Assembly: GCF_900111365.1 (NCBI RefSeq) | Contig: NZ_FOGZ01000003.1 | Coordinates: 1-64,000, forward strand | DNA: 64,000 nucleotides | Source: Propionibacterium cyclohexanicum | GTDB lineage: Bacteria; Actinomycetota; Actinomycetes; Propionibacteriales; Propionibacteriaceae | Direction: 5' to 3' | Shown here: piece by piece, positions 22,025-33,392 of the stretch | Numbering within the stretch: position 1 is the stretch's first letter | How the letters are laid out: the number at the start of each line of letters is the position of its first letter | The notes under the pieces: generated by a model | What the model saw: only the letters and a program-made list of their open reading frames with translations | Told to the model about the DNA's origin: nothing | Databases searched by the model: none | Made by a program: the position numbers and the translations under genes

Positions 22025-23266
22025 TCAGCTCTGGAGCAGGCGCAAGAGCTCGTCGCGAATCCGCACGCTGCGCCGGGGGTCACGGTTACCCACCACGGCC
22101 ACGGTGAGGCCGCCACCGGCCTGCGTGGCGGGGGTGAAGGCGCTGCCGGCAACCGCCTTGTCGCAGCGCACGCAGAAGATGTGTGACGCCTCAGCGGCCT
22201 GCGCGATCTCCTCGTTGACCTGCGGATCGTTCGAGGCCGCCAGCACATACCAGGCCCCCGCGACATCTCGGGGGCTCGCGGCCCGTTGCTGCCAGTCGAC
22301 GAGCCCCTGCTGTGCCAGCTGCGCGACGCGGATTCCAGCACTGGGAGCCACCACCCGCACCTGGGCACCAGCCGCCAGCAGTTTGGGGATGCGCCGCTCC
22401 GCGATGCGCCCCGCCCCGACCACGAGCACATCGCGGCCCTGCAGGCGCAGCCCGCTGAGATAGACCGGCGCCCCTTGGCCTTCGCCCACCGTGCCGAGCT
22501 GTTCTCGGTACCGGTCGATGAGGATCTCGGCGATCTCGCCGGCGGGCCCGAGAACCTCGGCGACGCGGACCTGAACACCGGGATGCGACGCGGACCAGGC
22601 CGCCACCTGCTCGTGGAGCCAGGTGCGAAGGCGACCGGCGAACAGGAAGTTCGGCGCCACGAGGATCTGCTGGGCGCCGGAATCGGCGGCTGCGGTGAGG
22701 CTCTGAGGCACGCTCGGGCGCACCACCTGGATGAAACTGGGCAGCACCTGCTCCAGCCCCATCTCCTCCCAGACCTGGCGGCTCAGCCGGTAGTGGTTCG
22801 AGTTGGCATCGGTGTCCAGTGCCCCGCGTCCCACCAGTACGACGCTCGTGTCGGCGGCGCGCCAGGCCGGACCGTCATCGGGTTCAAGGGCCCGCGCGAT
22901 GCGCCGTTCCAGCACTGTGCGCACTCTCGGGTCGGGCAGCAGCGGACCCGCATAGGCCACCCGGTGCTCGCCCCGGCCGCGCTCGACCGCACCGGGAATA
23001 TCGCGGCGGATATGGCCCCCGGTGTTGAGCAGGAGCGGCACGACCACCGCTTCGGGCCCATCCGGCCCGGGATCCGGCGCCCGGTCGAGCACCTGTGCCA
23101 GCGCCGTGGCGATGTCCGGCTCGACGATCTCGACGAAGCCGAGTGCCACATGGACACCGGGCAGGGCCCCGGCCACCTTTTCGACCAGCGCGCGGCATTG
23201 CGCCAGGCCCTGCGCGTCGCGGGTGCCATGTCCAGCGATGACGAGGGGCGTTCTCGGCTCAGGCAT
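22025..23266 (-). CDS. cbiX: Sirohydrochlorin cobaltochelatase fused to precorrin-2 dehydrogenase
   Basis: 413-residue fusion. Residues 1 to about 255 are a two-lobe CbiX that inserts cobalt into sirohydrochlorin; metal-handling histidines are in VIAGHGTRD and LLLNTGGHIRRD, and the second lobe has VLVGRGALDTDANSN. Residues from about 262 on are a siroheme-synthase-type NAD domain (DVLVVGAGRIAERRIPKLLAAGA, then YVLAASNDPQVNEEI and GGGLTVAVVGNRDPRRS), which would oxidise precorrin-2 to sirohydrochlorin. One chain may thus make and load the substrate. ATG 23266 follows AGGAGG and overlaps the cbiEGH stop by eight bases. Confidence 0.9.
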   Translation of the reverse strand: MPEPRTPLVIAGHGTRDAQGLAQCRALVEKVAGALPGVHVALGFVEIVEPDIATALAQVLDRAPDPGPDGPEAVVVPLLLNTGGHIRRDIPGAVERGRGEHRVAYAGPLLPDPRVRTVLERRIARALEPDDGPAWRAADTSVVLVGRGALDTDANSNHYRLSRQVWEEMGLEQVLPSFIQVVRPSVPQSLTAAADSGAQQILVAPNFLFAGRLRTWLHEQVAAWSASHPGVQVRVAEVLGPAGEIAEILIDRYREQLGTVGEGQGAPVYLSGLRLQGRDVLVVGAGRIAERRIPKLLAAGAQVRVVAPSAGIRVAQLAQQGLVDWQQRAASPRDVAGAWYVLAASNDPQVNEEIAQAAEASHIFCVRCDKAVAGSAFTPATQAGGGLTVAVVGNRDPRRSVRIRDELLRLLQS

Positions 23267-25709
23267 GGTCGGCCTCCTGTTCCTGCCCGTGACCGGACAT
23301 CCAGTGGTAATCGCGCGGTGTGACGAGCAATGTGCGTCCGCCACCGCTCGTGACGAACTTTGTCGTCGAGGAGCCCACGACGACAAGGGTGTTCATGTCG
23401 ACTGAGGCGGGCTCGAAGGTGCCGAGAGTGCTCAGCTGGACACTCTGGCGGGCCCGCTCGGCCTGGGCGACTGCCGCGACCGGCGTCCCGGGACCGCGAT
23501 AGTGCGCAATGATCGCCAGCGCATCGGGCAGATGATGCCGACGGGTTCGCGAACGCGGGTTGTACAAGGTGATGACGAAGTCGCCTCGTGCGGCCGCCCG
23601 AACCCGCTCGAGGATGACATCCCAGTCGGTGTGCAGATCGGACAGGCTGATCGTGGCATGGTCGTGGCCCAGCGGCGCGCCGAGGATGGCCGACACGGCC
23701 AGCTCGGCAGTGATTCCGGGGATGATGTCGACATCCACTCCCTCGGTGCCCATCTCGAGAGTGGGGCTCGCCATGGCATAGATGGCCGGATCCCCGCCAC
23801 AGACGAAGGCCACGTCGAGCCCCTTGCGGGCCGCGTCGATGGCTGCCTGGGTGCGCTGCTCCTCGGTGCCCATCTTGGTGGCCAGCACCTCGGCATGGGG
23901 ACTGACCAGATCGCGGATCTGGTGCACATAGGGTCCGTAGCCCACGACGAGGTTCGCGCGCCGGATGGCGCGCTCGGCGCGCGGGCTCAACAGATCACGG
24001 GAGCCCGGGCCGAGACCGACGACGTGGAGTCGCCCGCGCGCCGGGATGCGTCCGATGGCGCAGGTGGCCTGAGCAGACTTGCGCTTGGCGACGACAAGCT
24101 CGGCCCCGCTGGCCAGCACGCTCGCCTCGGCCACCGATGCGGTCCCCACCTGCGCCTTGACCAACGACGAAGGCGTCGGCACCGATTGCGCGTCGAGCAG
24201 CTCGGCAGGAAATGTGCGATAGTCGACGCCGAGCTGCCTCGCCAGTCGGATCAGGCCCCGCTCACCGGCCTTCACATCGGCGCTGACCAGCTGCGCCACC
24301 GAGCCCAACGCCAGGTGGTGCTCGGCCAGAGTCGTCTCGAGCAGTTCCCGCAATGCGTCCGTCTCGGTGCCCTTGTTGCATCCCATCCCCACCACCAGGC
24401 TCGGTGGATGGAGCACCACGGTAGGCAGAGTTCCGCTGTGCGGATCGGCCACCTCGTCGGTGACACGGATCTTGGCCACAGGTCTGGCAGAATCGGGCGC
24501 GACATTTGCGGGCAGCGGGGGTAGGGGCCACAGTCGCTGCCTGTCGAGTTGCACCGGCTCACCCTCCAGAATCGCCGAGGTGACGGCGCCGACATCACCA
24601 TCGAAGGCCCAGCCGAGCTGATCGAGGGCCGGGACACCCAGCGAGTCGGTGGCGGTGGAGACCACGGCGGTGGCCCCCAGCGCCTCGCCGATGCGCCTGG
24701 CGAGTTCGTTGGCCCCTCCGACATGGCCGCCGACAAGAGGGATCGCGAAGTGGCCGGCCCCATCGACGACGACCACGCCCGGATCGGTCATCTTGTCCGC
24801 GAGCAGCGGCGCAATGAGCCGCGTTGTGGCACCGAGCGCGAGATGGGAGACGATGAGGTCACATTCGTGCCAGGCGGCCACCAGTCCGCGAGCTGCCGGT
24901 CCGTCATAGCGCCTCGAGGCGATGCCGAGCGCTGCGTCGATATGGTCGGCGGCGGCCCTGGCGCGAGTCGAATTCACCACCTGGCCGACGATGGGTTCCC
25001 GGTCCGTGCCGTCGGGGGCGACGTCGGTGCCCGGCTGGCGCTCGCCTGGTCCTCGCGTCCACGGCTCGCCCGCCAGTTCGGGGACCTGTCCGATGGCCTG
25101 AGGCGAATCGGGCCGGTGGTCCAGCACGAGCACGACATGGGGATCGCGAACATCTCTTTCGTCCAGGGCGGCCGCCTCGTGGGTACTCAGCACGCGGACG
25201 CGCTCGCCGGCCTCGCCCAGTTGCTCGGCCACGACGAACCACTTCTGGCGATCGGCAAGCCCCCGGACGAGCTGCACGATACCGCGATCCGGCGCGGTGA
25301 GCACCGCAACTTTTGGATGACTACGGCAGATGCGCACTGCGGTGTCGATTCCCCGCGAGTGCGCATTGACCACCTGGGCGTCGTCCCAGGGCAGCGCGAC
25401 GGCCGCGAACGCGGCCTGGATCGAGCTGGGGGCCGCGATGACCTCGCACTGCAGGCCGCTGCGCCGCAAGCTGCGCACGATGCCGAAGTACAGCGGATCG
25501 CCGCTGGCCACGACCACCGCCCGTCCTTGCGCCCCCACAGAGCTCAGCGCCTCGATCGCCGGGGCGAGCGGCCCCAGCTCGATGCGCCGGTCCTGCCCGA
25601 CGCCGAGTGCCTCGAGCTGGCGGTGCCCGCCGACGACGATGTCCGCCTGGGCCACGTCGGCGCGCAGTTCCTCGCTGACTTGGCCGAGGTATCCGTGGAC
25701 GCGAATCAT
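23259..25709 (-). CDS. cbiEGH: Three-domain corrin enzyme CbiE-CbiG-CbiH
   Basis: 816-residue fusion of three consecutive anaerobic-pathway activities. CbiE (about 1-195; ASGDPLYFGIVRSLRR) methylates C5. CbiG (about 215-550; WHECDLIVSHLALGATTRLIAPLLADK, VVVDGAGHFAIPLVGGHVGGANELAR, VVGMGCNKGTETDALREL) opens the lactone and expels acetaldehyde. CbiH (about 555-805; HVVGLGPGSRDLLSPRA, FVCGGDPAIYAMAS, VITLYNPRSRTR) methylates C17 and contracts the ring. The open frame extends 200 codons further upstream, but ATG 25709 overlaps the cbiF stop (ATGA) and opens with a methyltransferase strand. The same fusion is known from Propionibacterium. Confidence 0.93.
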   Translation of the reverse strand: MIRVHGYLGQVSEELRADVAQADIVVGGHRQLEALGVGQDRRIELGPLAPAIEALSSVGAQGRAVVVASGDPLYFGIVRSLRRSGLQCEVIAAPSSIQAAFAAVALPWDDAQVVNAHSRGIDTAVRICRSHPKVAVLTAPDRGIVQLVRGLADRQKWFVVAEQLGEAGERVRVLSTHEAAALDERDVRDPHVVLVLDHRPDSPQAIGQVPELAGEPWTRGPGERQPGTDVAPDGTDREPIVGQVVNSTRARAAADHIDAALGIASRRYDGPAARGLVAAWHECDLIVSHLALGATTRLIAPLLADKMTDPGVVVVDGAGHFAIPLVGGHVGGANELARRIGEALGATAVVSTATDSLGVPALDQLGWAFDGDVGAVTSAILEGEPVQLDRQRLWPLPPLPANVAPDSARPVAKIRVTDEVADPHSGTLPTVVLHPPSLVVGMGCNKGTETDALRELLETTLAEHHLALGSVAQLVSADVKAGERGLIRLARQLGVDYRTFPAELLDAQSVPTPSSLVKAQVGTASVAEASVLASGAELVVAKRKSAQATCAIGRIPARGRLHVVGLGPGSRDLLSPRAERAIRRANLVVGYGPYVHQIRDLVSPHAEVLATKMGTEEQRTQAAIDAARKGLDVAFVCGGDPAIYAMASPTLEMGTEGVDVDIIPGITAELAVSAILGAPLGHDHATISLSDLHTDWDVILERVRAAARGDFVITLYNPRSRTRRHHLPDALAIIAHYRGPGTPVAAVAQAERARQSVQLSTLGTFEPASVDMNTLVVVGSSTTKFVTSGGGRTLLVTPRDYHWMSGHGQEQEADHA

Positions 25710-26701
25710 TGCTTGTCTCCTGGCTGAACTTCTGGGGTGCCCGCGACAGCCCCGTCCGAATGCCGGCCGGTCACCGGCTGGCCGGCGCGCTGGGACACCG
25801 TCTCGGGCACTCCCAGCGGGGCCGCGACCGCCGGATCCGCGTCGCGATACTCGTGGCGGAATCCGGGGTGATAAAGATGACTGCGGGTGCCGGTCGGTCC
25901 GGCGCCCACGGCGGGGCCGACGAGGACGATCGTGTGCTTCCACAGCTTGTGGGCGCGCATCGTCGCGGACAGCTGGGCCAGCGGGCAGCGCAGCACCATT
26001 TCCTCGGGCCAGCTCACCGCATAGCCGACGACGCAGGGCGTCTGAGGCGGGTAGCCCCCGGCGAGCAGGGCGTCCTGGAGGGCCTTGTTGCGCGCCGCCG
26101 AGAGATAGATGGCCATCGTGGCTCCGTGGGAGGCGAACGAGGCGATCGTCTCCCCCGGCGGCATCGGGGTGCGACCGCCCTCCAGCCGGGTGATCGTAAG
26201 GGACTGGCTCACCTGCGGCACCGTGAGCTCCGCCCCGACGCGGGCAGCCGCCGCGGAGAACGCCGAGACGCCCGGCACCACCTGCACCGCCAGACCCAGC
26301 CGCTCGCACAGATCGCGCTGCTCGGCGATTGCCCCGTACAGCGAGGGGTCACCGGTGTGCACGCGGGCCACGAGCAGGCCCTCGTCGCGTGCCCGCGTAT
26401 AGACGGGCACCAGCGCCTCCAGCGGCGCGGACGCGGAGTCGATGACCTCGGCCTCGGCTCGGCGTTCGGCAATCACCTCGGGGCTGACGAGGCTCGATGC
26501 CCAGACGATGATGTCGGCAGCGGCGATCACTCGGGCGCCGCGCAGCGTGATGAGATCACCGGCCCCGGGGCCAGCACCCACGAACACCACCGACCCCTGC
26601 CCGGCTCCCACGGCGGGCGCCGGGACGACCTCGCCAGGAGCTGCGTCGGCGAGATCGTCCCCGACGCGGGCCTCGGGAGTGACCGACTGCTTCCCACTCA
26701 T
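25706..26701 (-). CDS. cbiF: Cobalt-precorrin-4 C11-methyltransferase
   Basis: SAM-dependent tetrapyrrole methylase for C11. The domain runs from about residue 35 (VVFVGAGPGAGDLITLRGARVI), through ARVHTGDPSLYGAIAEQ and VVPGVSAFSAAAARVGAELTVP, to KLWKHTIVLVGPA, with the downstream SHLYHPGFRHEYR typical of CbiF. Compared with the usual ~255 residues it carries a 35-residue N-terminal and a ~45-residue C-terminal low-complexity extension, 331 in all. It overlaps both neighbours by four bases (ATGA), so the operon is translated as a coupled unit. Confidence 0.94.
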   Translation of the reverse strand: MSGKQSVTPEARVGDDLADAAPGEVVPAPAVGAGQGSVVFVGAGPGAGDLITLRGARVIAAADIIVWASSLVSPEVIAERRAEAEVIDSASAPLEALVPVYTRARDEGLLVARVHTGDPSLYGAIAEQRDLCERLGLAVQVVPGVSAFSAAAARVGAELTVPQVSQSLTITRLEGGRTPMPPGETIASFASHGATMAIYLSAARNKALQDALLAGGYPPQTPCVVGYAVSWPEEMVLRCPLAQLSATMRAHKLWKHTIVLVGPAVGAGPTGTRSHLYHPGFRHEYRDADPAVAAPLGVPETVSQRAGQPVTGRHSDGAVAGTPEVQPGDKQ

Positions 26702-27462
26702 ATCCGCCCTCCGGTGCTGGTCCGCGCTGGCGTCGACAAGACGGTGGAGAAATAGGGCAGGGTCTGGTGCGCGTCCACCTCGGCGAGGGTGACGATCTGC
26801 TGACCGGGCAGGGAGACATCGGTGCCGATGACTGCGCTTCGACCACGTCGGCGCAACTCATCGAGCACCCCCGGCAGGGTGCGTCCCCCCTTGTAGACAG
26901 TCACCGTGTCGACGACGTCGAGCACCTCGCCAAGCCGCTGCGCACCCACCGTGGCCGGGACGAGCGCCAGGATCTCACGCCCCTCGACGAGCGGCCAGCC
27001 GCTCGTGGCGGCCAGCGCCTGCATGGCGGTGATGCCTGGCACCAATTCGAAGACCACGTCCGTCAGCTCGCGCGCCACACCCGAGCGCAGATAGCTGAAG
27101 GTGGAATACACGGTCGGATCGCCGATGGTGGCGAATACGACGGTGCGCGCCCCCCTGCCGAATGCATCGACGGCAGCCCGGACGCTGGCCCGCCAGCTCT
27201 CGGCACGTTTGGGCCCGACCCCGTGACGCTCCGACATGGAGAAGGGGATGCGTTCGATGCGCCGCGCCGCGCCCGGGCAGGCCTCCTCGACGATCCGCTC
27301 GGCCCGGCCCGGCCCGTCCGCAGAGCCCTCGGTGGCCGGCACGAGGATCACCTCGGCCGAGTTGAGCAGATTCACCGCCTTGACGGTGAGCAGCTGCGGG
27401 TCGCCGGGGCCAACCCCCACTCCCACCAGCCGCCTCGTGTGCTGCGCGTGTTCGTCTGCCAT
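26698..27462 (-). CDS. cbiL: Cobalt-precorrin-2 C20-methyltransferase
   Basis: First dedicated corrin methyltransferase, adding a methyl at C20 from SAM. It is 254 residues, starting LVGVGVGPGDPQLLTVKAVNLL, with VFATIGDPTVYSTFSYL and FELVPGITAMQALAATSGWPLVEG; the family motifs are complete. ATG 27462 follows GGAGACCGG. It leads the reverse operon cbiL-cbiF-cbiEGH-cbiX and sits 36 bases behind a cobalamin riboswitch, so high adenosylcobalamin should shut the operon down. Confidence 0.94.
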   Translation of the reverse strand: MADEHAQHTRRLVGVGVGPGDPQLLTVKAVNLLNSAEVILVPATEGSADGPGRAERIVEEACPGAARRIERIPFSMSERHGVGPKRAESWRASVRAAVDAFGRGARTVVFATIGDPTVYSTFSYLRSGVARELTDVVFELVPGITAMQALAATSGWPLVEGREILALVPATVGAQRLGEVLDVVDTVTVYKGGRTLPGVLDELRRRGRSAVIGTDVSLPGQQIVTLAEVDAHQTLPYFSTVLSTPARTSTGGRI

Positions 27463-27497
27463 CCGGTCTCCTCAGGTACCTCGCCCAATGTCGCCTC

Positions 27498-27631
27498 GCG
27501 AAGGGCGAGTATCTGGCTGACAGGACCTTTGGCTCGCGAGCGCGCAGCTCACCTCAGGTGCCTGTTCACAGTGGCGGGACCGCGCCGGAATACCAGCTGG
27601 GCTGGGCACCGGACTTCCTCGTCTCCTTCGC
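27498..27631 (-). promoter_or_regulatory. Cobalamin riboswitch for the cbiL operon
   Basis: On the reverse strand the leader shows the conserved core in order: GAGGAAGTCCGGTG, ATTCCGGCGCGGTCCCGCC, ACTGTGA and the B12 box CAGCCAGATACTCGCC. The closing stem pairs GCGAAGG (27631-27625) with CCTTCGC (27504-27498). Just past it CTCGCCC can pair with GGGCGAG, a hairpin overlapping the 3' arm of the closing stem and reaching toward the GAGGAG ribosome site of cbiL, so control may be on translation. The distance to the cbiL ATG is 36 bases. Confidence 0.88.
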
Positions 27632-27751
27632 TGCCCCAGTCTGGCACGTCTTGCCGACAGCCCGGCAGCCGTGCCCATCCGCGGCCGGTGCCGCAGGCAC
27701 ACGGGGGAGGGTGAGGATCGGGCGAGAGACCTGCTGTGTATCCTTGATCGC

Positions 27752-27930
27752 GTTGGTACGACCATCGCCGATGGGCGTCGAAAGAGGGAATTCGGTGTGA
27801 TTCCGGAGCTGTCCCGCAGCGGTAAATGGGAACGACATCACGTTTCGGCACTGGGCATTTCGCCTGGGAAGCCGTGGTGGAGGAAAACGGGAAGATTCTC
27901 GCCTGCCCATGAGCCCGAACACCTGCCAAC
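27752..27930 (+). promoter_or_regulatory. Cobalamin riboswitch upstream of mutA
   Basis: The forward strand carries the classic btuB-type core: AGAGGGAATTCGGTGTGATTCC, GGAGCTGTCCCGCAGCGGTAAA, GGCACTGGGCATTTCGCCTGGGAAG (conserved parts only), and the B12 box GAGCCCGAACACCTGCC. GTTGG (27752-27756) pairs with CCAAC (27926-27930) to close it. TATCCT (27739-27744) is a fitting -10 box for a start at about 27751. The aptamer reads toward mutA, which begins 338 bases later; no other forward gene intervenes. Confidence 0.88.
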
Positions 27931-28268
27931 TGCGACGACGCGAGCCGCCGTATCCACCCCGCGGAGGGTCGTCAACGTCGGAAGCGCATGGATGATGCCG
28001 AAGATCGCGATGAAGAAGTCCGGCCGGCAGGCCGGGCGCGCCGACTGGCGGGTGCTGCGGCATCGGCCAGCCTCGTGCCCGCAGGCCTGTGGTGAGTTTC
28101 GCAGCTGGTTTCACGGGCACCGTCCGATGGCTACGAGGCCATACGGGGCGTCCACCAACCCTCCGTCTCGGTTCGCCGATGCGGTGGGTCCAGGAACGGC
28201 CGGCGGCCAGTTCGTGGTGTCGTGGAGTATCGGCACGGCACCTTGACCCTTCCAGGAGCAGGAGTCGC
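27931..28268 (+). other. Long leader between riboswitch and mutA
   Basis: No convincing gene lies in these 338 bases; open frames here have no protein-like content. There are GC hairpins, for example CCGGCC (28020-28025) with GGCCGG (28030-28035), which could be part of an expression platform or a terminator. The last part, AGGAGCAGGAG, is the ribosome site for mutA. A second promoter inside the leader cannot be excluded. Confidence 0.5.
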
Positions 28269-30182
28269 ATGAGCAAGACTGAAACCGAGGGCACTGTGGC
28301 CGCCGACGCGGCCACAGACGTCCCCACGAAGCTCAGTCTCGCCGGAGATTTTCCCCCGGCGACCGAGGAGCAGTGGGAGATCGAGGTTCAGAAGGTTCTC
28401 AACCGAGGACGCCCACCAGAAAAGCAGCTCACCTTCGAGCAGTGCCTGGCGCGCCTCACGAAGAAGACGATCGACGGCATCAGCATCCGCCCGATGTACC
28501 GGCGCCAGGATGCGCCGCAGACACTGGGCTACCCCGGAATCGTTCCGTTCACCCGGGGCACGACGGTACGCAATGGCGACATCGACTCCTGGGATGTCCG
28601 CGCCCTCCACGAGGACCCCGATCCCGAATTCACCCGCAAGGCAGTCCTCACCGATCTGGAGCGCGGCGTCACGTCGATCTGGCTGCGCGTCGGATCCGAT
28701 GCCGTCAAGCCCGAGGACGTGGCCGGCGCACTGTCCGATGTGCTGCTCGAGATGACCAAGGTCGAGGTCTCCAGCCGGGAGGACCAGCAGGGGGCTGCCG
28801 AGGCCCTGCTCGGCGTCTACGAGAAGTCCGGTAAGCCGGCCGACGAGCTGCAGCTGAACCTTGGCATCGACCCGATCGGCCTGGCGGCCCTGCAGGGCAC
28901 CACACCTGATCTGTCGACCCTGTCGACGTGGGTGAAGAGACTCGAGGGCTATGCCAAGTCGCGGGCCATCATGGTCGACGGCACCATCTACCACAATGCG
29001 GGGGCCGGGGACGTCGCCGAGCTGGCGTGGAGCCTCGCCACCGGTATCGAGTACGTACGCGCCCTCCTCGACCAGGGCATCGGCGCCGACGAGGCCTTCG
29101 ACGCCATGAACTTCCGAGTGAGCGCCACCCACGACCAGTTCCTCACGATCGCCCGGCTGCGCGCCCTGCGCACCTGCTGGTCGCGCATCGGCGAGGTCTT
29201 CGGGGTCAGCCCCGACAAGCGCGGCGCCCGGCAGGTTGCCGTCACGAGCTGGCGCGAGCTAACTCGCCAGGACCCCTATGTGAACATCCTGCGCGGCACG
29301 ATCGCCACCTTCTCGGCGGCGATCGGCGGGGCGGAGGCCGTCACGACGCTGCCGTTCTGCTCGGCGCTTGGCCTGCCCACCGACGACTTCGCCCGCCGGA
29401 TCGCACGCAATACCGGCATCATCCTGTCCGAAGAGGTGAACATCGGGCGCGTCAACGACACCGCCGGAGGCTCCTTCTACGTGGAGTCGCTCACCAAGAG
29501 CCTGGCCGAGGCGGCCTGGGCCGAACTGCAGAGCGTCGAGGGCCTGGGCGGCATGGCCGCTGCCCTCACCGGCTCCCACGTGACCGACACCCTCGCGGCA
29601 TGCAATGAGGAGCGCGCCACGCGGCTTGCCACCCGCAAGCAGCCCATCACGGCCGTCAGCGAATTCCCCATGATCGGTTCGCGCAGCGTGGAGACCAAGC
29701 CATTCCCCCCCGCCCCGGCACGCAATGGACTCGAGTGGCACCGCGACGCGGAGGTCTTCGAGTCACTGGTGGACCGCAGCAAGACACTCGAGGGCCCCAA
29801 GGTCTTCCTCGCCTGTCTCGGCAGCCGACGCGACTTCGGTGCCCGCGAGGGCTTCTCTGCCCCGGTGTGGCACATCGCGGGGCTCGAGACCCCCGAATCC
29901 GAGGGCGGCACGACCGAAGAGATCGTGGCAGCCTTCAGACAGTCGGGGGCCGTCGTGGCCGACCTGTGCTCGTCCGCCAAGGTGTACGCGCAACAGGGCC
30001 TGGACGTGGCCCGAGCGCTGAAACAGGCCGGAGCGAAGGCCGTCTATCTCTCCGGCGCCTACAAGGAGCTCGGCGAGGGTGCGGATCAGGCTGAGGACGT
30101 CTTCGCCGGCCGCATATTCCTTGGTATGAACGTCGTGGACGTCCTGTCCACCGTGTTGGATCTGATGGGAGCTGCGGAATGA
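28269..30182 (+). CDS. mutA: Methylmalonyl-CoA mutase small (beta) subunit
   Basis: Non-catalytic partner of MutB in the adenosylcobalamin-dependent mutase that interconverts succinyl-CoA and (R)-methylmalonyl-CoA, the central step of propionate fermentation. The 637 residues closely match the length of the Propionibacterium subunit, and long stretches are recognisable ([50 protein letters not shown]). The C-terminal flavodoxin-like domain lacks the DxHxxG cobalamin ligand, as expected for this subunit. An in-frame upstream extension is rejected because AGGAG precedes ATG 28269. Its stop overlaps the mutB ATG. Confidence 0.96.
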
Positions 30183-32389
30183 GCACTCTGCCTCGTTTCG
30201 ATTCGATCGCACTGGGCGAAACCCCAGTGCCCCCCGACGCCGCGAAGGCGTTCGAGGAGCTGGCCGCCAAGGCCGGCAGCCATGAGGAGTGGACGACCCC
30301 CGAGCAGATCCCGGTGGGCACGCTGTACAACGAGGACGTCTATTCCGACGTCGACTGGCTGGACACCTTCGCCGGTATTCCGCCGTTCGTGCACGGCCCC
30401 TATGCCACGATGTATGCCTTCCGCCCCTGGACGATCCGCCAGTACGCAGGCTTCTCGACGGCCAAGGAGTCCAACGCCTTCTACCGGCGCAACCTCGCCG
30501 CCGGCCAGAAGGGCCTGTCGGTCGCCTTCGACCTGCCCACCCACCGCGGCTACGACTCGGACAATCCCCGGGTGCCCGGCGACGTCGGCATGGCCGGCGT
30601 GGCCATCGACTCCATCTACGACATGCGCGAGCTGTTCGCCGGCATCCCGCTGGACCAGATGAGCGTCTCGATGACCATGAACGGCGCGGTGCTGCCGATC
30701 CTGGCGCTCTATGTGGTGACGGCCGAGGAGCAGGGTGCCAAGCCCGAGCAGCTCGCCGGGACGATCCAGAACGACATCCTCAAGGAGTTCATGGTTCGTA
30801 ACACCTACATCTATCCGCCGCAGCCGAGCATGAAGATCATCTCGGACATCTTCGCCTACACCAGTGCGAACATGCCGAAGTGGAACTCCATCTCGATCTC
30901 CGGCTATCACATGCAGGAGGCCGGCGCGACGGCCGACATCGAGATGGCCTACACGCTGGCCGACGGCGTCGACTACATCCGCGCCGGCGAGTCGGTGGGC
31001 CTCAAGGTGGACCAGTTCGCGCCGCGGCTGTCGTTCTTCTGGGCGATCGGCACGAACTTCTTCATGGAAGTCGCCAAGATGCGCGCCGCCCGCATGCTGT
31101 GGGCCAAGCTCGTCAAGCAATTCGATCCGAAGAACCCCAAGTCGATGAGCCTGCGTACCCATTCGCAGACCTCCGGCTGGTCGCTCACCGCCCAGGACGT
31201 GTACAACAACGTGATCCGCACCTGCGTGGAGGCCATGGCCGCCACCCAGGGCCACACGCAATCGCTGCACACGAACTCGCTGGACGAGGCCATCGCCCTG
31301 CCGACCGACTTCTCGGCGCGGATCGCCCGTAACACCCAGCTGTTCCTTCAGCAGGAGTCGGGCACCACGCGCGTCATCGATCCGTGGAGCGGCTCGGCCT
31401 ACGTCGAGAAGCTCACCTTGGAACTGGCCCGCAAGGCATGGGGACACATCCAGGAGGTCGAGCACGCCGGTGGAATGGCGAAGGCCATCGAAGCGGGCAT
31501 CCCCAAGCTGCGCATCGAGGAGGCTGCGGCCCGCACCCAGGCCCGGATCGATTCAGGCCGTCAGCCGCTCATCGGCGTCAACAAGTACCGTCTCGATCAC
31601 GAGGACCCCCTCGAGGTCCTCAAGGTCGACAACACCCAGGTGCTTGCCGAGCAGAAGGCAAAGCTGGTCAAGCTGCGAGCTGAGCGCGACGAGCAGGCCA
31701 CCCAGGCCGCCTTGGAGCGGCTCACCTGGGCTGCCGCCAATCCAGATCCCACCGATCCAGATCGTAATCTGCTGAAACTGTGCATCGACGCAGGTCGGGC
31801 CATGGCCTCGGTGGGCGAGATGAGCGATGCCTTGGAGAAGGTCTACGGTCGCTACACTGCGCAGATCCGCACCATCAGCGGTGTGTACGCCAAGGAAGTG
31901 AGGTCCTCCCCAGTGGTTGACGAGGCACGCGCTCTGGTGGACAAGTTCGAGCAGGCCGAGGGTCGTCGCCCCCGTATCCTGCTCGCGAAGATGGGCCAGG
32001 ACGGCCATGACCGTGGCCAGAAGGTGATTGCCACGGCCTTCGCCGATCTCGGCTTCGACGTCGATGTGGGCCCGCTGTTCCAGACGCCGCAGGAGACGGC
32101 CCGCCAGGCCATTGAGGGTGACGTGCACGTGGTCGGCGTCTCCTCCCTGGCCGCCGGCCACCTCACGCTCGTCCCGGCGCTGCGCAAGGAGCTGGACAAG
32201 CTGGGGCGCCCCGACATCCTCATCGTCGTCGGCGGCGTCATCCCCGAGCAGGACTTCCAGGCGCTGCGCGACGCCGGCGCGATGGACATCTACCCGCCGG
32301 GAACAGTGATCCCCGATTCCGCGGTCCGGCTGCTCAAGGAATTGCTGAGGCACGAGAACGTGGCAGGGGCAGGCGTCGCGGATGCCTAG
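30179..32389 (+). CDS. mutB: Methylmalonyl-CoA mutase large (alpha) subunit
   Basis: Catalytic subunit, 736 residues. Residues 1 to about 560 are the TIM-barrel that binds CoA and generates the radical ([44 protein letters not shown]). The C-terminal ~150 residues are the cobalamin domain with GQDGHDRG (the histidine replaces the lower ligand), [11 protein letters not shown] and IVVGGVIP. It begins four bases inside mutA and its end overlaps meaB by eight, so all three are translationally coupled. It should be active only when charged with the cofactor made by the cbi genes next door. Confidence 0.97.
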
Positions 32390-33392
32390 ACGCGTTGACG
32401 TCCCTGCGCTGGCCGGCCAGGTCATGGCCGGCCAGCGCGCGGGCATCGCGCAGGCCATCACGCTCGTCGAGTCCTCGCTGCCCGCTCACCGTCCGCTGGC
32501 CCGCGAGCTCCTCTCCCGTCTGCTGCCGCATTCCGGCAATGCGGTAAGGGTCGGGCTGACGGGAGTACCAGGGGCGGGGAAATCCACGTTCATCGACGCG
32601 ATGGGCTGCCGGCTCATCGAGCGGGGTCACAAAGTGGCGGTGCTGGCCGTCGACCCCTCGAGCACCCGGACCGGGGGATCGATCCTCGGCGACCGGACCC
32701 GAATGGGCAAGCTCGCCGAGAGCGACGACGCCTATATCCGGCCGTCCCCCTCGGGCGGCCATCTCGGTGGGGTAGCGCGCGCCACTCGCGAGGCCATGGT
32801 CATCATGGAAGCCGCCGGATACGACACGATCATCGTCGAGACGGTGGGCGTGGGCCAGTCCGAGGTTGCGGTGGCGGGGATGGTCGACACCTTCCTGCTG
32901 CTGTCACTGAGCGGGGCCGGGGATCAATTGCAGGGCATCAAGCGAGGCATCCTCGAGCTCGCCGACGTCATCGCGGTGAACAAGGCCGACGGCGACAACG
33001 CCGCCGAAGCCCGCATCACCGCCCGTGACCTGTCGATTGCAATGCGGCTCATGAACGACGAATCCAGCGGGCGGCGCACACCGGTACTCACCTGCAGCGC
33101 GCTCACCCACACCGGGCTCGACGAGGTCTGGCAGGCCGTCCTCGACCATCGGGCCTGGGTCGAGTCGACCATCGGCCTGACCAGACGCCGCGCCGACCAG
33201 CAGGTGGACTGGCTGTGGGCCCAAATCGAGGGAACCGTAGTGGACTCACTGCGCTCGACCCCGGAGCTGGTAAGCCTTGGCCGACGCCTTGAATCGGAGG
33301 TGGAATCGTCCTCGGTCAGTGCTCTGGAGGCCTCCTCGGAGTTCCTGGCGGCCTATGCGAAGGCCGTGCCCGGCTTCGGCTGGGGTGACTGA
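32382..33392 (+). CDS. meaB: Methylmalonyl-CoA mutase GTPase chaperone MeaB
   Basis: G3E-family GTPase (MeaB/MMAA, formerly ArgK) that gates adenosylcobalamin delivery to the mutase and protects it from inactivation. The 336 residues contain the P-loop [14 protein letters not shown] near 58, [22 protein letters not shown] (switch I region), [15 protein letters not shown] (switch II), VNKADG (base recognition), and the C-terminal dimerisation helix. The overlap with mutB and a shared operon make the assignment firm. It ends 21 bases before the converging tocopherol-cyclase-like gene. Confidence 0.96.

Follow-up and report, generated by a model that had tools for sequence, protein, structure and literature searches.

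Cobalamin riboswitches of propionic acid bacteria have been described before. In P. freudenreichii, they were reported upstream of cbiL, cbiB, and mutA (Deptula 2017; PMC5644110), an account that credits their recognition to Vitreschak 2003. The cbiL and mutA riboswitches were said to lie very close to each other, in opposite orientation, and it was suggested that they "can therefore interact"; their effect was described as yet to be addressed (PMC5644110). Another paper lists riboswitches of cbiL, cobD, and cbiM (PMC11494915), and control by the cbiM riboswitch of P. freudenreichii UF1 at the transcriptional level is among the findings it cites. For C. acnes, riboswitches located upstream of both cobamide-dependent and cobamide-independent reactions were reported (PMC9600381). 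The divergent layout of the cbiL and mutA riboswitches is, then, already known from P. freudenreichii (PMC5644110), and the question becomes a sharper one: why have five genera, Cutibacterium among them, kept a full class-I aptamer at the head of the transcript for a B12-dependent mutase with a central place in propionate fermentation, and what is the sign of the control?

The window analyzed here is a stretch of 64,000 nucleotides from Propionibacterium cyclohexanicum (contig NZ_FOGZ01000003.1, positions 1 to 64,000). Scanning it with cmscan (Rfam 15) gave one RF00174 match at 27737-27944 on the plus strand (100.9 bits, E 4.7e-24) and a second one at 27486-27653 on the minus strand (35.4 bits, E 2.5e-5); both exceed the gathering score of the family, 31.5 bits, and a repeat run returned identical scores. 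The initial annotation had proposed two cobalamin aptamers on opposite strands and named an Infernal search with RF00174 as the check, which gave the two opposite-strand matches it expected. It placed them at 27498-27631 and 27752-27930, so that the sites were right and the bounds slightly inside those of cmscan. Both aptamers are located between cbiL (ATG at 27462, minus strand) and mutA (ATG at 28269, plus strand), and RF00174, NCBIfam, and promoter motifs place each on the sense strand of a B12-related operon, within its 5' leader. On the minus strand, these are cbiL, the precorrin-2 C20-methyltransferase gene (26698..27462; TIGR01467, 222 bits, cut-off 163), cbiF/cobM, encoding precorrin-4 C11-methyltransferase (25706..26701; TIGR01465, 328 bits), an open reading frame with CbiE, CbiG, and CbiH domains (23259..26309, putative start; TIGR02467 and TIGR01466 above cut-off, CbiG-type matches below theirs), and one with chelatase (CbiX-like) and CysG N-terminal domains (22025..23386; TIGR01470 above cut-off, the CfbA-type match below). 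The plus-strand operon consists of mutA and mutB, for the small and large subunits of methylmalonyl-CoA mutase (28269..30182, start by homology, TIGR00642, 814 bits; 30179..32389, NF006944, 1264 bits), and meaB, for the mutase-associated GTPase (32382..33392; NF006958, 469 bits). The gene calls of the initial annotation are confirmed, with CbiL, CbiF, CbiE/H, MutA, MutB, and MeaB all reaching NCBIfam curated cut-offs.

A putative mutA -10 element, TATCCT, lies at 27739..27744 (plus strand). In 22/22 genomes, the motif TANNNT precedes the first G[CT]TGGT of the mutA aptamer by 6-7 nt, a spacing found at 0.4% of background positions; a start site at ~27751-27752 is therefore very probable for mutA, with the transcript and its aptamer sharing their first base. 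For cbiL, a -10-like element, CAGACT, was found at 27638..27643 (minus strand); it is weak, was assigned by sequence and position only, and suggests a start at ~27631. The two putative start sites agree with the ~120-bp promoter gap that had been proposed, and they support the idea of a complete aptamer at the head of each transcript, one for cofactor synthesis and the other for cofactor use.

To place these elements among relatives, 147 Propionibacteriaceae genomes were searched with RF00174, MutA, and CbiL, and the upstream regions were then read. An aptamer on the mutA strand precedes mutA in 22 genomes, the window genome included, which represent the five genera Propionibacterium, Cutibacterium, g4, g21, and g23; it is missing from the upstream regions of four mutA genes of other genera. 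In genus g23 (L025/G076 and L026/G061), an extra open reading frame of ~140-150 codons lies between the aptamer and mutA, and the mutA gene behind it still carries the GGAGCAGGAG element discussed below. The minus-strand match is marginal when taken alone; the same compact aptamer was recognized before cbiL in 14 of the 15 other genomes read (L007, L027-L038, L039, and L040), the one without it being L039. Of the cbiL counterparts, twelve passed either E <= 0.001 or the gathering score; three score below gathering, those of P. australiense (28.3 bits), one Cutibacterium-group genome (25.4 bits), and P. freudenreichii (22.2 bits). By comparison of sequences, both aptamers are genuine and have been conserved, each together with its operon; control by adenosylcobalamin or a related corrinoid is the predicted function of both leaders.

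The two aptamers differ in architecture. In the cmscan alignment, the mutA aptamer covers 189/189 RF00174 positions, including the CACUGG..CCUGGGAAG arm and the ACCUGCC box. The class-I peripheral (P10-like) arm was sought in the alignment of the cbiL aptamer and is absent: 24 model positions are skipped, with 0 bases in their place. Several P1/P2 pairs of this aptamer are non-standard, and the peripheral arm is short in most of its relatives. This fits a class-I assignment for the mutA aptamer and a class-II-like form for that of cbiL. The claim of the initial annotation that the aptamers differ stands in this sense, full class I versus compact, and both sequence forms that it quoted are present in the window. 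Two architecturally different aptamers for one cofactor in one genome lend themselves well to testing ligand selectivity and set point.

We consider it probable that two independent cis-acting cobalamin riboswitches head the two divergent transcripts and repress both, the sign at mutA being inferred. Each switch would most likely act in cis on its own operon. It is proposed that the binding of (adenosyl)cobalamin leads, in both leaders, to the docking of loop L5 onto a downstream element. In the cbiL leader, the main sequence conserved between the aptamer and the start codon is (C/T)(G/A)GGCGAG..CCTGAGGAG, which ends in the Shine-Dalgarno sequence; in the window, this candidate expression platform, the main conserved block of 15 cbiL leaders, is TTGGGCGAGGTACCTGAGGAG (27468..27488, minus strand). 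The presumed docking element, GGGCGAGGTACCTGAGGAG, adjoins the Shine-Dalgarno sequence ~24 nt before the start codon, and docking would prevent translation and reduce cbi expression. A comparable arrangement is described for env8HyCbl, where L5-L13 docking masks the Shine-Dalgarno sequence (PMC5282855). The conserved block thus points to OFF control at the level of translation. Pairing of L5 with the GGGCGAG block is possible, and in most species it is no better than in shuffled sequences. Repression in cis is the most likely mode of action of the cbiL switch, supported by the qRT-PCR data for C. acnes, in which cbiL mRNA in the presence of B12 amounted to 0.74- and 0.24-fold (PMC4863617).

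The mutA leader is built differently, with a separate hairpin after the aptamer. In the window, a P13/L13-like hairpin, ACCC-CGCGGA-GGGU, stands just 3' of the aptamer (27956..27969, plus strand) and is conserved in four Propionibacterium leaders. The Cutibacterium and g4 leaders have an equivalent hairpin with an invariant CGAGGG loop; its stem pairs in 100% of them, 3/4 pairs show two-sided changes, and its covariation score was reached by 0/500 shuffles, so this covarying hairpin is, as far as sequence can tell, the expected P13/L13. The loop partner changes together with L5: of the leaders with L5 UCCCG, 5/8 have CGGGA no more than 40 nt from the aptamer, and those with L5 CCCCG have GAGGG instead. 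The L5/L13 match is clear in P. freudenreichii and weak in the window species, whose L13-like loop, as in L008 and L009, is a poor pairing partner of L5. Docking at this hairpin would most likely lower mutAB-meaB expression. The mutA Shine-Dalgarno sequence lies within the conserved GGAGCAGGAGTC (28255..28266, plus strand); GGAGCAGGAG occurs in all riboswitch-bearing mutA leaders and is absent from the four riboswitch-less mutA genes. No intrinsic terminator was found on the plus strand of the mutA leader, and downstream of the aptamer the four Propionibacterium mutA leaders contain no stretch of at least four U. In the window species, ~310 nt without a U-run terminator separate the aptamer from the Shine-Dalgarno sequence, which makes direct masking of the latter less likely here than a loss of mRNA stability or termination by Rho. 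Two further candidates were rejected. A conserved leader peptide was dismissed, as the upstream open reading frames that are present differ in sequence between species. Direct pairing of L5 with the Shine-Dalgarno region was also set aside; GCGGAGCA is the top L5 partner in 14/14 Cutibacterium/g4 leaders, but it is invariant and the pairing contains an A-C mismatch.

Repression of mutA is expected, by inference only, and the repression of a B12-dependent enzyme by B12 is counter-intuitive, which speaks against the explanation we prefer. The physiological logic of making the mutase only when its cofactor is present favors the opposite sign, with adenosylcobalamin binding freeing the mutA ribosome-binding site and the cbiL switch shutting synthesis down. 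In riboswitch-bearing leaders, CCTGC of the conserved B12 box and GCAGG at the Shine-Dalgarno sequence of mutA are complementary, which such an ON switch could use; RNAalifold, applied to 14 post-aptamer sequences, draws them as paired, and the pair would be in competition with the bound aptamer. However, in full-leader ensembles almost every species gives CCTGC and GCAGG a pairing probability close to zero, accessibility ratios are spread about 1, both partners are invariant and so provide no covariation, and the cobalamin riboswitches in the literature we found are mostly repressive. We regard this alternative as unlikely. The related proposal, which sees in the mutA aptamer a natural switch of the ON type, or of another non-repressive kind, for an adenosylcobalamin-dependent enzyme, through which one ligand would turn synthesis down and use up at one divergent locus, seems to us quite doubtful. 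In folding calculations, the accessibility of the Shine-Dalgarno sequence with and without the aptamer had no consistent direction in either leader. In Xylanibacter, B12 raises mutA and mutB transcripts, there without a nearby riboswitch (PMC11575231). With both switches repressive, as we prefer, scarce free cofactor would raise cofactor supply and mutase together and keep the propionate pathway running, and plentiful cofactor would lower both. Removal of the mutA leader could matter for strains producing propionate or vitamin B12.

The second alternative treats the divergent pair as one regulatory unit, in which the ratio between synthesis and use is set by a shared promoter region or an interaction of the leaders. 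The putative start sites are only ~120 bp apart, the layout recurs in P. freudenreichii DSM 20271, and an interaction was hinted at for that species (PMC5644110). Nevertheless, the Propionibacteriaceae search found cbiL and mutA as neighbors only in the window genome and in DSM 20271, that is, in 2/4 Propionibacterium genomes. In P. australiense and another Propionibacterium (G067), the genes are apart and both switches are kept; among the Cutibacterium and g4 genomes with both genes placed, no adjacency was found, and the switches are kept there as well. The adjacency is neither required nor unique. Since the switches persist where the genes are far apart, the suggestion of the initial annotation that a single locus sets both functions is unnecessary, and a special significance of the shared locus was rejected. 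Moreover, the two transcripts diverge without overlap, and therefore no antisense contact is implied. A further back-to-back pair of cobalamin riboswitches, ~213 bp apart, was observed in G070 (L073:2991-3507), between two divergent substrate-binding-protein/permease operons that are B12-transporter-like; the arrangement has evidently arisen elsewhere with other genes. A coordinated locus is, in our judgment, improbable, and the neighboring placement would reflect a chance gene order of the P. freudenreichii lineage or be, at most, a convenience.

The last alternative, that in the window species the cbiL element has decayed into a relic, leaving mutA with the only working switch of the two, could be argued from a score barely above the cut-off, the non-standard P1/P2 pairs, and the low score of the P. 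freudenreichii counterpart, yet it is very improbable given that the core CGGTCCCGCCACTGT, the box-like AGCCAGAYACTC, and the GGCGAG..CTGAGGAG block are kept across 15 leaders and that cbiL of C. acnes is repressed by B12.

Cobalamin aptamers were also noticed elsewhere in the genome of the window species. On contig C15, a cbiB riboswitch (L005:1501-1668, plus strand) stands several hundred nucleotides upstream of cbiB, with a CobC-like phosphatase gene antisense between them. An aptamer-like match of 32.8 bits on contig C30 (L004:1501-1574, plus strand) lies directly upstream of a gene for a XerC/XerD-like tyrosine recombinase, an unexpected neighbor for a B12 switch. The third, on contig C47 (L006:1501-1569, minus strand; 31.6 bits), is followed by a lipoprotein-like gene and a membrane protein gene; the membrane protein resembles an ECF-transporter T component by eye and has no NCBIfam match.

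Among the known systems, the closest is that of P. freudenreichii, with the same two genes, close and in opposite orientation, and B12-box elements in both riboswitches; the window species is a different one (its MutA is 73% identical to that of DSM 20271), and its cbiL aptamer scores higher with RF00174. The RS2/RS3 pair of Pseudomonas denitrificans also comprises two cobalamin riboswitches between two operons, although, as described in PMC8123684, those operons serve synthesis and cobalt transport and involve no B12-dependent enzyme. Taken separately, the mutA aptamer resembles the class-I riboswitch of the E. coli btuB type (RF00174) in spanning the full model, CACUGG..CCUGGGAAG arm included, but it would control the operon of a B12-dependent enzyme rather than uptake, and in the window species the Shine-Dalgarno sequence is remote from it. 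The cbiL aptamer shares with compact class-II-like riboswitches of the env8HyCbl type the lack of the P10-like arm and a conserved element adjoining the Shine-Dalgarno sequence, whereas its top-scoring Rfam family remains RF00174.
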